NCBI GenBank assembly: GCA_012520575.1
Contig: JAAYOB010000030.1
Span: 1-30,423 of the forward strand
Direction of reading: 5' to 3'
From: Candidatus Stramentimicrobium fermentans
GTDB lineage: Bacteria > Atribacterota > Phoenicimicrobiia > Phoenicimicrobiales > Stramentimicrobiaceae
Length of the DNA stretch: 30,423 nucleotides
Each line of letters begins with the position of its first letter. The first letter of the stretch is position 1. A program made the position numbers and the translations under genes. Shown here piece after piece: positions 7,327 to 24,279 of this stretch. The notes under the pieces are model-generated. The model was not told the origin of the DNA. It did no database searches and worked only from the letters and a program-made list of their open reading frames with translations.

Positions 7327-7617
7327 AAAAGAGGCAGAAATTTACAAAATTTATTGCACCAGAATAGGGTGTTAAATCCCTTATTGGGCATCGAAAACCC
7401 TCGGGAAAGTACTCGAATAGAGTTTATCGGAGGGCAAAATGCTTTGGAGGAGATTAGAGAAGAGAGCAAAAAGCCTTCTGTTGTCATCTTTACCCTATTT
7501 CCAACTTCTACTAAAGAGATAAAAGAGATATCCGATAAAACCCTGATCATGCCCCCTAAATCAACCTGGTTTGAGCCTAAATTACGCAGCGGAATATCTG
7601 TTCATCAATTTGATTGA
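7327..7617 (+). pseudogene. C-terminal remnant of a DUF1015-family protein
   Basis: From the stop at 7324-7326 an open frame of 96 codons runs to TGA at 7615-7617. Its translation matches only the last quarter of DUF1015 proteins. It has an NLLHQ...VLNPLLGIENP block, an IEFIGGQNALEEI block, a VVIFTLFPTSTKEIKEI block and the end signature MPPKSTWFEPKLRSG. Intact members have about 400 residues; here 300 are missing and purH ends only 48 bases upstream. There is no ATG and no Shine-Dalgarno, only a weak TTG at 7354. I read it as the surviving end of a deleted gene rather than a functional small protein. The function of DUF1015 is unknown to me. Confidence 0.75.
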
Positions 7618-14333: not shown

Positions 14334-16322
14334 ATGTTAACAGAGGTTACTAAAATTATAAGAGGTCTATCAGTAGATGCCATAGAAAAGGCCAATTCAG
14401 GACATCCCGGCTTACCATTGGGCTGTGCTGAAATCGGAGCAGTGCTGTTTGGCGAAGTACTGAGACATGACCCTCAAAAACCGGACTGGCTGAATAGGGA
14501 TAGGCTTGTTCTCTCTGCCGGCCATGGTTCAATCTTGCTTTACGTTCTGTTGCATTTGTCCGGCTATGGTATTACCTTAGAAGATATTATGAATTTCAGA
14601 CAGGTAGGCTCTGTTACCCCCGGACATCCCGAATATGGACTTACCCCCGGAGTGGAAGTTACCACAGGTCCATTAGGCCAGGGCTTTGCTAATGGGGTAG
14701 GGATGGCATTGGCAGAAAGGATAATGGCCAAAAAGTACAACAAAGAAGAATTTGATATTATAGATCACTACACCTACGTTTTAGCCGGTGATGGTTGCTT
14801 GATGGAGGGTATTACTTCAGAGGCGGCCTCACTAGCCGGTCACTGGGGGTTAGAAAAGCTTATTGTAATTTATGATAAAAATCGGGTCTCTTTAGCCGGC
14901 AGTACCGATTTAATTTTTACTGAATCGGTGTCTGAGCGATTCCGTGCCTACGGTTGGCAGGTAATAGACCATGTTAATGGTCATGACCTTGATGAGATTA
15001 GGGCTGCCTTTCTGAAAGCTAAAGAAAAAAACGGTAAACCCGTACTCATTATTGCCGAAACTCATATTGGTTATGGGGCACCGACCAAGCAGGATAGTTA
15101 TTTATCGCATGGAGCACCTCTGGGAACTGAAGAGGTAGCCGGCTTGAAAAAGAATTTAGGGTTACCTGCAGATAGAACTTTTTATGTCAGTGATGTAGTG
15201 CGGAAATATTTCCAGGATAAAAAGTTTCTTCTTAAAGAATTAAGGGAACAGTGGGAGAAAAAATATAGGCAGTGGTCAGAGAAATTTACGGGAGAGAGAG
15301 AACAGCTGGAAAGGGCTATTAATTTAGAAATTTCGGAGAAAATGGATTTTTGGAATTTAGTAGCGTCTGAGAATATAGCCACTCGAAATACCTCCGGAGA
15401 TATTTTAGACAGTTTGGCAGATGAAATTCCGTACTTAATAGGTGGATCAGCGGATTTATCACCTTCAACCATGACCTATTTGCCCAAGCATTCTGAGATA
15501 CAGAAAGGCTGCTATGATGGACGTAATATTCGCTTTGGAGTTAGAGAGCATGCTATGGGTGCCATCTGTAACGGATTAGCTCTGCATAAAGGAATATGGC
15601 CTTATTGCTCCACCTTCCTGGTTTTTTCTGATTATATGAGGCCAACGATTAGATTAGCTGCCCTAATGGGATTACCGGTAATCTTTATCTTTACCCATGA
15701 CTCAATATATGTGGGAGAGGATGGACCTACCCATCAACCTGTGGAACAATTAGAATCACTAAGAATGATTCCCAACCTACAGGTTATTCGTCCAGCGGAT
15801 AGCGAAGAGGTGAAGGCTGCCTGGCAGAAAATTATAAAAAGGCGGGATGGGCCCACTGCTTTGATACTAACCAGACAAAAACTTCCCTTACTGGAAAAGA
15901 AAAATGGGATTAAAGATATTTTCCGAGGAGGTTATATTGTATATAACAAGGACGAAAACCCGGAGGTGGTTATTTCATCTAGCGGAAGTGAGGTACACAC
16001 CGCACTCCAGGTCAAAAATATTTTAGAGAAAGAGCGGGTTTCCTGCCGGGTAGTTTCTATTCCTGACCGCGAAGCGTTTGCCGGACAGGGGCAAGATTAT
16101 AGAGAGACGATACTGGGTGGCAAAAACACTTTTCAGGTAGTGATTGAGGCAGCTACCGGACAGGGTTGGTATGAAGTAGTGCCCAATCTTTCCTTGGGAA
16201 TCTTTATCAGGCAATTTGGAGAAAGCGGTCCCGGCGAGAAAATAGCCGCTAAATTCGGTTTTGAACCGGAAAAAATTGCCAGGTTAATTTTGGAGAAGCA
16301 GAAGATTAAAAAAGCAGAGTAA
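14334..16322 (+). CDS. tkt: Transketolase, full length
   Basis: A 662-aa TPP enzyme carrying both transketolase halves on one chain. It moves two-carbon units between sugar phosphates in the non-oxidative pentose phosphate pathway. Visible: EKANSGHPGLPLGCAE at the start, the TPP-binding GDGCLMEG with D153 and YDKNRVSL about 30 residues on, and RFGVREHAMG with E405, the Glu that activates the thiazolium. GYGAPTKQDSYLSHGAPLG and FSDYMRPTIRLAALMGLPVIF are also typical, followed by the C-terminal domain. GGGAGG at 14323-14328 precedes the ATG. A gap of 103 bases separates it from hypD; a weak TTGATA-16-TAAAAC lies there, so it may have its own promoter. It could feed triose and sugar phosphates from the aldolase step into ribose. 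Confidence 0.95.
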   Translation: MLTEVTKIIRGLSVDAIEKANSGHPGLPLGCAEIGAVLFGEVLRHDPQKPDWLNRDRLVLSAGHGSILLYVLLHLSGYGITLEDIMNFRQVGSVTPGHPEYGLTPGVEVTTGPLGQGFANGVGMALAERIMAKKYNKEEFDIIDHYTYVLAGDGCLMEGITSEAASLAGHWGLEKLIVIYDKNRVSLAGSTDLIFTESVSERFRAYGWQVIDHVNGHDLDEIRAAFLKAKEKNGKPVLIIAETHIGYGAPTKQDSYLSHGAPLGTEEVAGLKKNLGLPADRTFYVSDVVRKYFQDKKFLLKELREQWEKKYRQWSEKFTGEREQLERAINLEISEKMDFWNLVASENIATRNTSGDILDSLADEIPYLIGGSADLSPSTMTYLPKHSEIQKGCYDGRNIRFGVREHAMGAICNGLALHKGIWPYCSTFLVFSDYMRPTIRLAALMGLPVIFIFTHDSIYVGEDGPTHQPVEQLESLRMIPNLQVIRPADSEEVKAAWQKIIKRRDGPTALILTRQKLPLLEKKNGIKDIFRGGYIVYNKDENPEVVISSSGSEVHTALQVKNILEKERVSCRVVSIPDREAFAGQGQDYRETILGGKNTFQVVIEAATGQGWYEVVPNLSLGIFIRQFGESGPGEKIAAKFGFEPEKIARLILEKQKIKKAE

Positions 16323-16397: not shown

Positions 16398-16425
16398 TTG
16401 ACTTTTAGAAAGTTGTTGTTAAAAT
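16398..16425 (+). promoter_or_regulatory. Promoter of the lysine riboswitch transcript
   Basis: TTGACT at 16398-16403 and TAAAAT at 16420-16425 are 16 bases apart. Transcription would start near 16432, about 38 bases before the aptamer's P1 stem, which is the expected arrangement. Confidence 0.65.
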
Positions 16426-16469
16426 GGAACGTAACAATTAAATAGAGTGTGCCTCACTTTATTTTTGAA

Positions 16470-16670
16470 GTGAGGTAGAGGCGCGAACGATCAAGAGTAC
16501 TGATAGGGAGCCCAGGCAGTGTTGAACTATCAGAAAAGGGGTCTTCGCCGAAGTCTAAATGCTCTGGCTTAGGGTATTAGGCTGGGGTTATGGTAAATAG
16601 CCATAACACTGTCACCTGAGATAATTCCCGTTCTCAGGTGGAGCGCTATCTCATCGAGAAGAGATAAAGT
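16470..16670 (+). ncRNA. Lysine riboswitch (L box)
   Basis: The leader contains the conserved L-box core in order: GAGGTAGAGGCGCGAAC (16472-16488), AAGAGTA (16494-16500), AAAAGGGG followed by CGCCGAAG (16535-16554), GCTGGGGTT (16581-16589), CTGTCACC and GGAGCGCTATCTC (16640-16652). P1 is formed by 16470-16478 with 16646-16654, nine pairs including two G-U. The strand CTCATCGA (16650-16657) can instead pair with TCGATGAG (16704-16711) inside the terminator's left arm. Lysine binding should stabilise P1, release the terminator and switch transcription off. Without lysine the antiterminator forms. Known L boxes control lysine synthesis or transport genes; here the downstream gene is a broken amidohydrolase. 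Confidence 0.93.
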
Positions 16671-16697
16671 GGGATGTAAAAATGTTGCTATGTATTA

Positions 16698-16739
16698 GGG
16701 CAATCGATGAGCTTAGCGCTTATACCGATTGCCCTTTTT
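16698..16739 (+). terminator. Riboswitch-controlled intrinsic terminator
   Basis: GGGCAATCG (16698-16706) pairs with CGATTGCCC (16726-16734), followed by TTTTTATTTTTT. The left arm overlaps the antiterminator strand 16704-16711, which makes this the regulated expression platform of the L box. Confidence 0.9.
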
Positions 16740-17035
16740 ATTTTTTAATTGTTTAAATTAAAAAATAAACGATAGCTAAAAAATAATTTTGGGCGGAAAA
16801 AAATTTAACAAAAATTATAAAATAAGTGTTTGTTAATAATAGAACAATTAACAGAGGGAGGTTAACGATATTAAATCAGAACTAAAGAGAAAATAAATTA
16901 CGAGAAGGAGGAGGTATTTATAGATTTTAGAGAGAATAGTTTGTTAATAATATTACAACTTAAATTATTGCCAGCAAGTAAATTATAAGCATATTGTAAT
17001 AATGTCAAAAAATAAAAAAAGGAGAAAAATACACG
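16740..17035 (+). other. Gap between L-box terminator and amidohydrolase, with orphan Shine-Dalgarno sites
   Basis: Nearly 300 AT-rich bases. Two Shine-Dalgarno-like sites, GAGGGAGG at 16854-16861 and AGGAGGAGG near 16906-16914, are not followed by ATG, GTG or TTG in a usable frame. The third, AAGGAG at 17019-17024, serves the amidohydrolase ATG. The region looks like the leftovers of one or two small genes, or of a gene once controlled by the riboswitch. Confidence 0.45.
16828..16962. repeat. Imperfect direct repeat GTTTGTTAATAAT
   Basis: GTTTGTTAATAAT occurs at 16828-16840 and 16939-16951, each followed within a few bases by ACAA and a TTAA. A weaker relative (ATTGTAATAATG) lies near 16994. 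Spacing of the two exact copies is 111 bases. It may reflect a local duplication. Confidence 0.45.
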
Positions 17036-18811
17036 ATGAGAGGATTATCCAATGTTTTATTACCTTTAACTTTATTTATATTGTTAATTTCAATGTCAGT
17101 CATGTCTCAGGCTTTACCTGAAGATCCTGAAGTAATGTTTGCAGTACCTCATGATGCTGACGTAATATATGTCAATGCCAATATAATTACAGTTGATAGG
17201 ATGCATGATTGTTCTCGGGCCTCTGCCATGGCTATTGATGACGGTTGGTTTATCTATGTCGGTGATGAAACGGGAGTACAGGCCTATAAGGGACCTGAAA
17301 CCCTAGTAATTGATTTGGATGGAAAAACCGTTATCCCGGGTTTACATGATTCCCATATACATTACAGAATTGGATCCCGGGAACTGTATCCTTAACACCA
17401 GACATCAGGGAAGAGTTAGGTAAATGGGTTTCTGTGGAAAGGATGCAGAGTGTCATTAAAAACTGTATTGCCACTGGACAGGGGATGCGGATAGGCGAGA
17501 ACGGACAACCCTGGTTGGTATTAACTGGCTGGATGTCAGATGTATGGAACCCTCCGGTATTTCACAGAAAATTGGTTGATGTGGTATCAGGAGATATTCC
17601 CGTATACATATCCCGTTACACTCACGGAAGCGGATGTAACACTAAAGCTTTGGAACTAGCTGGTATCACTAAGGATACACCTGATCCCGAGGGAGGACAC
17701 ATCAAAAAAGATGAGAATGGAGAAGTTACTGGAGAATTTGTTGAGAGAGCTCCGGCTGAATTAACGCGTCTAATTCCTCCTGCAGTTCCCTATACCCCTT
17801 ATGGGAATGCCCGTAACTTTGTGGAAGGCCAGCATTTGGCAATTTCCAAAGGGCTTACTATGTGATACATGAGGCTTCTTCGACTGGTTATAATGATATA
17901 ATGCGAAATTTGAGCCTTTATGAAGGCAACATTATGTTACTTAGAATTAATGATATGTGTAGTCCTGATTGTGCAAAACAATTAGGTAAACCACTCAATT
18001 TTAACAATAGATACATAGTTCAGACTGTGAAGCAGCTTTCAGATGGGCTATGGGTTCCAGAGGCGCCTGGTTACTGGAAGAATATTCTGATTATCCTGGA
18101 TTTTTCGGTGAGCCCAGATTAACTCCACAAAATATAGGAGATTTAGGTGCAGAGCTCATTGATATAGGGTTCAATCTTGCTATACATGCCATTGGTGATG
18201 CTGCAAATCGTGCAGTTATTGATGGTTATGAAATGGCTTTAAAAAATACCGGAGCAGATCCGTTTAAGGTCAGGTTCCGAATTGAGCATTGTCAGACACT
18301 TACACCCGAAGATATTTTCAGGATTGCCCCCCTAGGGTTGATCGCTTCTATGCAGCCGCTTCATGCTACTGAAGACCAGCACTTTTCTCCCGATAGGCTG
18401 GGACCTGAGCGCATGAAGGGTGCCTATATCTGGAGTACCTTGCTTGATCTGGGCGTCGTGGTTGCCTCAGGTACGGATTATTCTGTTTCTCCCTACAACC
18501 CGTTTTATACCATTCATGCTGCAGTGACCAGACAAGATCGGGACAATTATCCACAGGGAGGCTTCTACAAGAACGAAGCCATGACCAGAGATGAAGCCCT
18601 GTGGTCTAGCACTTGGGCCGGTGCTTATGCTGCAAAAATGGAAGATATCTACGGCTCTATCGAGAAAGGGAAATTGGCAGACTTTGTGGTAATTCCGGTA
18701 GATATTTTGGATGAAGAAGCTATTACTGATGAAGACCTCTGGAAGATTGAAGTTGACATGACAGTCATCGGTGGTGAGGTAGCTTATAGAAAACCTGTAA
18801 TGGTGGAATAA
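17036..18811 (+). pseudogene. Secreted YtcJ-like amidohydrolase (Amidohydro_3), broken by three frameshifts
   Basis: Across three reading frames this stretch encodes one continuous amidohydrolase of about 590 aa, the family's normal length. It begins with a Sec signal peptide (MRGLSNVLLPLTL...SQA) and a good AAGGAG site. Metal-site motifs remain: HDSHIH in the first piece, then AIHAIGDAANRAVIDG, RIEHCQTL and ASGTDYSVSPYNP in the last. Each break is explained by loss of one base: near 17391 (ELYP then LTPDI), near 17862 (GLTM then IHEAS) and at 18046/18047 (QLSDG then AMGSRGAW). None falls in a long homopolymer. The pieces are 17036-17395, then about 17389-17865, 17862-18049 and 18047-18811. 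Family members hydrolyse amides or cyclic amides; the substrate is unknown. It is probably a recent pseudogene, less likely assembly error. It is the only gene after the lysine riboswitch. Confidence 0.88.
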
Positions 18812-18930: not shown

Positions 18931-19468
18931 ATTTAATATGCCCAAATTTTTGGTTTAAGTCTGTGCATATTGTTCCTCATCTGTTAATTCATAAATAAAG
19001 TGAGATTACTTTTATAAAACTAATATTATAGAAGATCTGATTAGTATTTTGTCCGCAATTTAAAAATAAAAGAAAGAGACCCCTAAGTGATTCACATAAT
19101 CAAAGAATGTAGTTTATTGTATCAGTAAATAATCCGACAGTTACCGGGCAGATAATGGCTGTAGCTGCGAGAGCAAGTATGAAACAAAAACCCTGCTGCT
19201 ATAGTCTATTGGATACTCCACTGATAGATTTTCTTTATGGAGAAAAAAAGAAATACTATTGCGGCTGGTATAGAGGATGCGGAAATCTAATTTAAAGACT
19301 AAGCTGAAGGGTGTAAACGAATTAAATAATTTTTGTAAAGATGAATACCGGGTAAATAGTTTTATTAAATAATCTGCAAAAATAACTACCTCACCTGATT
19401 CTTTCCTTATCATTCGATATAGCAAGAAGCTCTAGATGAGAAATAACTTTTTTCTATTAGATTTAATA
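18931..19468. other. Gene-poor intergenic region
   Basis: No gene I can support. The longest plausible coding stretch on the plus strand is a 60-codon open frame at 19113-19295 (internal ATG at 19155). Its product is cysteine-rich toward the end (KPCCYSLLDTP, YYCGWYRGCGNLI) and has no Shine-Dalgarno. I do not recognise it; it may be a gene relic. A 94-codon minus-strand frame (19141-19425) overlaps it, also without a start signal or family resemblance. Confidence 0.5.
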
Positions 19469-19477: not shown

Positions 19478-19539
19478 TAATATAAAGATAGTGACGTAAA
19501 TTCTTAAAAATGATATTAAAAAGAAAGGAGGAAAAGGTG

Positions 19540-20094
19540 ATGATACAGGTAAAAGTTTTTGGGGTCGCGATAGACCCGGTAACAAAAGGATTTGTCGTTA
19601 TTTTAAAAGATCAAGATGAGAAGAAGTGGCTTCCCATTTGGATTGGGCCCTATGAAGCCAAGATGATTTCTTTAGCCTTAGAGAAAAATAAACCAAGCAG
19701 ACCTTTTTCTCCCGATTTAATTAAGAATATTATTGAGGCCGCAGGTCTGATTGCTGAAAAAATCGTTATCTCTGACATAAAGGACAATACCTATTATGCT
19801 ACCATCTGTCTAAAAAAAGAAGAAAAAGAATTATTAATTGATGCCAGACCCAGTGATGCTATTGCAGTTGCCCTAAGATTAGAAGTACCTATCTTTATTG
19901 CGGAAGAAGTTATGAAAAAAGCCTCAGTAACCCATTCTTCCAAAGAAAGGGATGTAGCTGTTCAGTTAGCTCAACTGCAAAATGAATTGCAAATCGAAGT
20001 AGAAAAAGAAAATTATGAAAAAGCAGCTCAGCTGAGAGATGAAATTCGCCGCTTAGAAAAGATGAAAAATGTTCCTCCTTTGAAACCTAATTAA
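19540..20094 (+). CDS. Bifunctional nuclease (BFN/DUF151) domain protein with UVR motif
   Basis: A 184-aa cytoplasmic protein. Residues 1-130 form the BFN/DUF151 domain: VFGVAIDPVTKGFVVILKD, WLPIWIGPYEAKMISLALE and LIDARPSDAIAVALRLEVPIFIAEEVM. Residues 145-178 form a coiled UvrB/UvrC (UVR) interaction motif, LQNELQIEVEKENYEKAAQLRDEIRRLE. The two-domain layout is common in bacteria; BFN members have been reported with DNase/RNase activity. ATG at 19540 (or GTG at 19537) fits AAAGGAGG at 19524-19531. A longer frame from 19510 would place the Shine-Dalgarno inside the coding sequence and is rejected. A strong terminator follows at 20158-20191, so it is monocistronic. The UVR motif also occurs in Clp-associated proteins, which is suggestive next to clpB. 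Confidence 0.9.
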   Translation: MIQVKVFGVAIDPVTKGFVVILKDQDEKKWLPIWIGPYEAKMISLALEKNKPSRPFSPDLIKNIIEAAGLIAEKIVISDIKDNTYYATICLKKEEKELLIDARPSDAIAVALRLEVPIFIAEEVMKKASVTHSSKERDVAVQLAQLQNELQIEVEKENYEKAAQLRDEIRRLEKMKNVPPLKPN

Positions 20095-23253: not shown

Positions 23254-24279
23254 TTACAGGTAATGGATATTAATCTTTGAAACCCCAGAATCGATATCTA
23301 TATCAACCTGATATAGTGCACTGTTATAGTTTTGAGAGATATAGGTATAGTCTTTCTGCTTTACAAAGTTTTCATCAAAATCCTTTTTACTTAATCCGGT
23401 ATCCAGATGAACCTTTGCCCCTACATCTTCAGGAATGGCAATATCGATCTTCGCAACTCCCGAGTCAATCTTTATGCTTCCATTGTAACGGGGAATAATG
23501 AGGTTGATATTGGAGGCGCCGCTTTTAATGGTGAAACTCTCTACTTTAAATTTTGATAAATCGTAGTCTATCGCAGTTGCCCCGGTTTCTAAGAAAATAT
23601 TATAGACAATATCAGGGTTTAGTTTTAAGTCAATTTGATTTTTTGGTGGGTCTATTGTCATTTTGTCGGAAATCGGTTGGTGATAAATTTGTACCTGTGC
23701 TTCATTATCCAGCATGGTGAAGCTTTCTACCGGTTTAAATTCAGGATACCGATAACTAACCTGGCATTCATAGAGCAGAGGAGTGGTATATTTGAGAGCA
23801 AAAGAACCGACCTCATAGTTTAGGGCGATATCTGCTTTTTGTATTAAGGGAACCATTTCGATATCTTTGCTGACCTCTCCAATCATTCCCTCTTCAGTTA
23901 ATTCCTGTATCTCTATACTTTCAGTATCCTCATCTTGCTCTGAAAATTCTTTTTCCATTTTCTGAACCACAGATGGGACAAGCTCCATCTCTTTTTGAAT
24001 GATTTCTACCTCAGTAGGAACTTTATCTCCTAATGGTACATCTAATCCCATATAACTGGCACCAATCCCCAAAATGACTCCCAGTAATAAGAGCAGGGGA
24101 CCTAACCAGGAAAGCCTTGTCCTAAAAATAAAACTAATACCCAGGCTGATTAACAGTAATGGCCATAGTTTTAAAAGGTTAAACCAGACAGACCATTCCA
24201 GTATGCTCAAGTTATTTAGTAATAGGATAATACCAACTAAGATTATAACCAATCCTTTAAAAAACCGGGCAATGCTCAC
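23254..24279 (-). CDS. LiaF/DUF5668-type membrane protein with toastrack-like C-terminal domain
   Basis: A 341-aa protein. Residues 7-78 hold about three membrane helices: GLVIILVGIILLLNN, LWPLLLISLGISFIF and LGPLLLLLGVILGIG, with the LWPLLLI motif of the LiaI/LiaF transmembrane family (DUF5668). Residues 90-150 are an acidic, low-complexity linker. From about 155 the protein is beta-rich with repeating short strands (IKSGASNINLIIP, IDSGVAKIDIAIP, LDTGLSK, IDSGVSKINIHYL). This is the pattern of the LiaF C-terminal/DUF4097 adhesin-like toastrack fold, probably outside the membrane. LiaF-type proteins act in envelope-stress sensing. GTG start at 24279 with AAAGGAGG six bases upstream. It is last in a minus-strand set after the Lon-like and TPR genes (gap 94 bases). 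No two-component genes are nearby. Confidence 0.8.
   Translation of the reverse strand: MSIARFFKGLVIILVGIILLLNNLSILEWSVWFNLLKLWPLLLISLGISFIFRTRLSWLGPLLLLLGVILGIGASYMGLDVPLGDKVPTEVEIIQKEMELVPSVVQKMEKEFSEQDEDTESIEIQELTEEGMIGEVSKDIEMVPLIQKADIALNYEVGSFALKYTTPLLYECQVSYRYPEFKPVESFTMLDNEAQVQIYHQPISDKMTIDPPKNQIDLKLNPDIVYNIFLETGATAIDYDLSKFKVESFTIKSGASNINLIIPRYNGSIKIDSGVAKIDIAIPEDVGAKVHLDTGLSKKDFDENFVKQKDYTYISQNYNSALYQVDIDIDSGVSKINIHYL

Follow-up and report, generated by a model that had tools for sequence, protein, structure and literature searches.

We identified in the window (the entire 30,423-nt stretch analysed here, contig C10 of G000, a 1.58 Mb Atribacterota metagenome-assembled genome (MAG) that is 98% complete and 0.25% contaminated) a lysine riboswitch (L box) that is, with high confidence, a relic left by the deletion of its lysine/diaminopimelate (DAP) operon. 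The RNA match, the synteny of the locus, a remnant of the diaminopimelate dehydrogenase gene (ddh) and the failure to find the operon genes form the basis of this reading. A cmscan search matched Rfam family RF00168 to positions 16468–16656 of the forward strand with 114.1 bits (E 5e-30; gathering score 30) and over the full length of the model (positions 1–182 of 182). The score places the RNA in the curated lysine riboswitch family, the only Rfam family matched in the window, and confirms the presence of the L box proposed in an earlier note on this DNA. The features of the locus are as follows:

14334–16322, + strand: transketolase gene, the conserved left neighbour, with Pfam Transketolase_N, Transket_pyr and C-terminal domains
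16398–16425, + strand: sigma-70-like promoter TTGACT-N16-TAAAAT
16450–16477, + strand: 5' hairpin with a 12-bp stem (TGCCTCACTTTA/TGAAGTGAGGTA), its 3' arm being the 5' strand of P1
16468–16656, + strand: full-length lysine riboswitch aptamer (RF00168, 114.1 bits)
16650–16657, + strand: 5' arm of the antiterminator core (CTCATCGA), complementary to 16704–16711 and overlapping the 3' side of P1
16698–16739, + strand: intrinsic terminator of the riboswitch, a stem and T run aligned with the terminators of relatives
16704–16711, + strand: 3' arm of the antiterminator core (TCGATGAG), within the terminator stem
16740–17035, + strand: AT-rich stretch after the terminator, where the deleted block begins on the left; no trace of lysA could be recognised
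17036–18811, + strand: YtcJ-like (Amidohydro_3) pseudogene, with PF07969 pieces in three separate frames
19062–19253, + strand: 3' remnant of ddh, about 64 codons with one in-frame stop, detected by tblastn to intact ddh
19510–20094, + strand: bifunctional nuclease (BFN) gene, the conserved right neighbour (PF02577)

The RNA is a genuine lysine OFF riboswitch that looks intact and is of the type that acts by terminating transcription. Its promoter, already recognised in the earlier note, aligns with the TTTGAC(A/T)/TTAAAAT promoter of the lysA-linked orthologues. Both arms of the antiterminator are located where that note had read them, and so is the terminator, whose outer stem (GGGCAATCG/CGATTGCCC) spans positions 16698–16734 and is followed by the T run. 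Complementarity, constrained folds and alignment in relatives all support the P1/antiterminator/terminator platform of lysine riboswitches. The unconstrained fold of the leader combined P1 with the terminator (-108.7 kcal/mol), and forcing the antiterminator gave -104.0 kcal/mol, 4.7 kcal/mol above the free-energy minimum. Thus, the P1/terminator and antiterminator states are predicted to be mutually exclusive and near in energy, in agreement with the OFF switch by termination that had been proposed. We infer that the RNA binds lysine and terminates transcription: lysine binding would form P1 and stop transcription at 16739, and low lysine would favor the antiterminator and let the RNA polymerase run into the pseudogene. 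The RNA class is already known and the mechanism is not new; the setting, that of a relic, and the history are what differ.

The L boxes of the phylum carry a 5' hairpin, able to pair with the 5' strand of P1, that is absent from the RF00168 model. The hairpin folds at -16.8 kcal/mol in the window, and most of the 37 L boxes of the phylum have equivalents with compensatory changes. Because its 3' arm doubles as the 5' strand of P1, the hairpin should, as modelled, compete with P1. The swap control for this hairpin was weak because the upstream sequence is AT-rich. The sequence of the hairpin varies by L-box type (CTCACTT/AAGTGAG, CTTGTAT/ATACAAG, CTTGCAT/ATGTGAG) and the pairing is retained. 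The 5' arm of this pre-aptamer hairpin can also pair with a segment 3' of P1.

The earlier note had suggested asking which gene the L box precedes in related genomes. The transketolase gene is followed by the L box and then by lysA-dapF-dapL-lysC-dapA-dapB in G001, which belongs to the same genus, and in G008 and G009, which belong to the same family. NCBIfam equivalogs supplied the gene names in G001: lysA (TIGR01048), dapF (TIGR00652), DapL (TIGR03540), aspartate kinase (NF005159), dapA (TIGR00674) and dapB (TIGR00036). G006 has an L box followed by the identical gene order as far as dapA. Contig breaks interrupt the operon in G002, where contig C176 starts inside the L box and carries lysA-lysC-dapA-dapB, and in G007, where lysA-dapF-dapL and lysC-dapA-dapB are split over two contigs. 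G003 carries lysA-dapF-lysC-dapA-dapB on a contig without the upstream region. dapB turned up in seven relatives, and lysA and the dap genes are grouped in every one of them. L boxes outside the Firmicutes and Gammaproteobacteria have also been reported before lysine/DAP operons (PMC5584792). Like lysine riboswitches of this biosynthesis-operon type, the window RNA has a full-length aptamer and the P1/antiterminator/terminator platform, and its orthologues in relatives likewise precede the lysine/DAP operon; the window differs in that the controlled operon is deleted and no intact gene lies downstream. A downstream gene for lysine biosynthesis, transport or catabolism, which is the usual setting of an L box and not a property of the RNA itself, is present in G001, G008 and G009 and absent from the window. 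The original target of the window L box would have been the lysA-dapF-dapL-lysC-dapA-dapB operon.

The neighbours on both sides of the deleted block are conserved. The transketolase shares 73–78% amino acid identity with its counterparts in G001, G002, G008 and G009, where the gene lies ahead of the lysA-linked L box. Named relatives reached by way of the transketolase were 'Candidatus Atribacteria' MAGs, which places the window in the Atribacterota. On the right, BFN orthologues that are 81–85% identical follow the dap block in G002, G007 and G008, and G001, G002 and G003 share the gene order of the window from BFN (19510) through clpB, the gene at 23254 and a TPR gene to lonB. BFN directly follows dapB in G007; in G008, the contig and strand that carry dapB also carry BFN-clpB. 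A single contig of G002 runs from inside the L box to lonB, with lysA-lysC-dapA-dapB and BFN-clpB-lonB on the same strand; between L box and BFN it carries lysA, lysC, dapA, dapB, an ABC transporter, ddh (assigned by TIGR01921) and a second dapF-like gene. The same interval of the window contains only the amidohydrolase pseudogene and the ddh remnant. This remnant matches TIGR01921 weakly, is 58–64% identical (amino acids) to the intact ddh of G001–G004 (tblastn E 1e-24 to 3e-21) and lies upstream of BFN as ddh does in G001, G002 and G003. The stretch at 16740–17035 had no tblastn match to 227 proteins of relatives. The features that the earlier note had described within 16398–17035 are there, but the region extends to about 19250 and includes the ddh remnant, which the note had missed. 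One or several deletions would have removed everything from just past the riboswitch terminator into ddh.

The region upstream of BFN in G001, G002 and G003 has a branched-chain-type ABC transporter, the diaminopimelate dehydrogenase and the second dapF-like gene (L156 9018–9983, L160 9158–10084). This cluster could serve in the uptake or use of diaminopimelate.

None of the genes of the operon were found in G000. The genome searches recovered no dapF or dapB, and a search with the G001 lysA found no lysA. Queries with the G001 dapL, lysC and dapA found no orthologues, only paralogues about 24–33% identical, of a kind also present in G001 alongside the true genes. A displaced operon was also considered, and searches for the six operon genes found none elsewhere in G000. 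The aminoadipate route to lysine was rejected as well: the LysX model did not exceed its cut-off in G000, and G001, which bears the DAP operon, has the same weak homologue. Hence, the 98% complete MAG lacks the set of genes (lysA, dapA, dapB, dapL, dapF) for DAP and lysine prototrophy by the DapL route. With the operon present in relatives and none of its genes found in G000, the results favor the suggestion in the earlier note that the original lysine gene was lost and the switch orphaned. Because the missing genes travel as one operon, a single unassembled insertion elsewhere in this MAG would restore the pathway.

Another member of the genus, G004 (1.1 Mb), also lacks dapF and dapB and retains lysA and ddh. 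Its L box is cut by a contig end, which explains the apparent lack of an L box in this genome; the terminator, 90% identical to that of G001, and lysA are both present. G001 (full operon), G004 (L box and lysA) and G000 (L box alone) are thus a graded series in one genus, with losses that need not belong to a single lineage.

We also identified, at 7354–7614, the 3' remnant of a gene of about 421 codons in relatives (57–61% amino acid identity). The purH-pyrR interval of G001 and G008 contains genes for an aminotransferase and a phosphoglycerate-dehydrogenase-like protein, the ~421-codon gene, and genes for ornithine carbamoyltransferase and a class III aminotransferase, all of which are missing in the window. 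This interval is a second decayed biosynthetic block in the window.

G000 has a second L box (C1:1585–1773, 109.9 bits), which precedes a gene for an NhaC-type Na+/H+ antiporter. The lysW/nhaC family (COG1757) is listed as a lysine transporter target of L boxes (PMC5584792). The likeness to L boxes of LysW (NhaC superfamily) belongs to this second copy; the window L box is the other copy. The second L box probably still regulates uptake through the NhaC/LysW-type protein, a presumptive transporter. A single mismatch interrupts a stretch of about 90 nt common to the two L boxes of G000; the first half of the window L box is nearly identical to the nhaC copy. In G001 and G006, the two copies match without a difference for 291 and 311 nt, respectively, from upstream of the aptamer to the terminator, and their flanks are unrelated. 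Furthermore, the lysA- and nhaC-linked L boxes within a genome are usually more alike than orthologues between genomes (pairs L032/L042 in G001, L043/L044 in G006, L041/L038 in G002, L046/L047 in G008, L048/L049 in G009 and window/L033 in G000). Judged from these sequences, this looks like whole-riboswitch gene conversion between the two L boxes of a genome, and conversion with the nhaC copy plausibly keeps the window L box intact. Within the phylum, some L boxes (L011, L020, L024, L030 and L036) precede a saccharopine-dehydrogenase-like gene (start MKVLVFGGSGKMGS), which is a candidate L-box target worth checking, although the gene is named by sequence only.

The gene next to the L box offers another explanation. 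As the earlier note had described, it is a broken YtcJ-like amidohydrolase about 300 bases on: the PF07969 pieces (17036–17395, 17434–17865 and 18050–18811; best E 6.6e-47) start 297 nt after the terminator and need at least three frames instead of a single intact one. Its nearest solved structures are the uncharacterised hydrolases 3icj and 3igh. The note had also raised the prospect of a new type of L-box target. Such a target could have been a secreted hydrolase yielding lysine from peptides that was later broken, and the location of the gene, next on the same strand with an AGGAG-like ribosome site ahead of its ATG, is consistent with this idea. Yet the amidohydrolase occupies the exact spot of the deleted lysine operon, and a search of 49 other genomes from the phylum at E 1e-20 returned nothing, so that no relative carries it at this locus or elsewhere. 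Because it has no close relative in the 49 genomes and is broken, the amidohydrolase is an unlikely target, and we regard this explanation as the least probable of all. The simplest reading is that it is a later arrival that has since decayed. After the deletion of the lysine/DAP operon, an unrelated amidohydrolase gene would have arrived at the locus and then lost its reading frame; we infer this order of events from the present arrangement. It is very improbable that misassembly fused a locus ending in an L box with an unrelated one. L boxes are repeats in these genomes and do break contigs, as in G002 (C218, C176) and G004 (C64), where contigs end inside or at the L box. Against misassembly, both flanks are collinear and co-oriented with relatives, the stop-bearing ddh remnant marks a real deletion and the six operon genes were not found elsewhere in the assembly.

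The intact look of the promoter, aptamer and terminator raises the question of whether selection has retained the L box because its terminated RNA still responds to lysine and serves as a trans-acting sRNA or decoy. At 117 columns invariant in other genomes, the window L box differs at 7 and the nhaC-linked copy at 10, five of them shared, so that sites conserved in relatives are no more altered in the window. The ddh remnant differs at 12 of 99, an underpowered comparison with the L box (p 0.15); the orphan L box thus gave no sign of accelerated decay in a test of little power. The lack of extra change at conserved sites could hint at retained function. Neither a target nor an independent transcript is known for such an RNA, the second copy should also yield a terminated L-box RNA, and the intactness is explained without a new role if the loss was recent or if the nhaC copy converted the window L box. 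Hence, we consider use as an sRNA or decoy quite improbable. A broader proposal, in which the riboswitch was kept either because its terminated RNA acts freely in response to lysine or because it serves as a conversion template for sequence exchange with the second L box, is improbable too. Under the preferred reading of a relic switch, read-through would enter the pseudogene and the window L box would therefore control nothing useful at present. We found no direct precedent in the literature searched for relic riboswitches, riboswitch gene conversion or lysine/DAP auxotrophy in Atribacterota, though such an absence is weak evidence.

The loss of the operon has consequences for cell wall synthesis. 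The Mur ligases are present in G000, and its MurE (L141 1962–3449) bears the DNPR motif seen in every relative that was read. DNPR is the usual mark of a DAP-adding MurE. The motif is also retained in the MurE of G004 (L143), which, like G000, is without dapB and dapF. A DNPR-type MurE in a cell without DAP synthesis implies scavenging of DAP and lysine, as such a cell has to take up DAP or muropeptides unless it uses lysine; import probably supplies both lysine and the DAP of the wall. The deep-subsurface anaerobe Fidelibacter multiformis, which can synthesise neither DAP nor lysine and depends on cell-wall material from outside (PMC11652737), provides a precedent for this auxotrophy. G000 differs in having kept its Mur ligases, including the DNPR MurE, and may depend on muropeptides. 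The case documents a regulatory RNA outliving its operon, graded in one genus, and indicates that the presence of a riboswitch alone is not evidence of the pathway. Furthermore, DAP synthesis has been lost from a genome that encodes a DAP-type MurE, and the organism is therefore predicted to obtain its cell-wall building blocks from neighbours.
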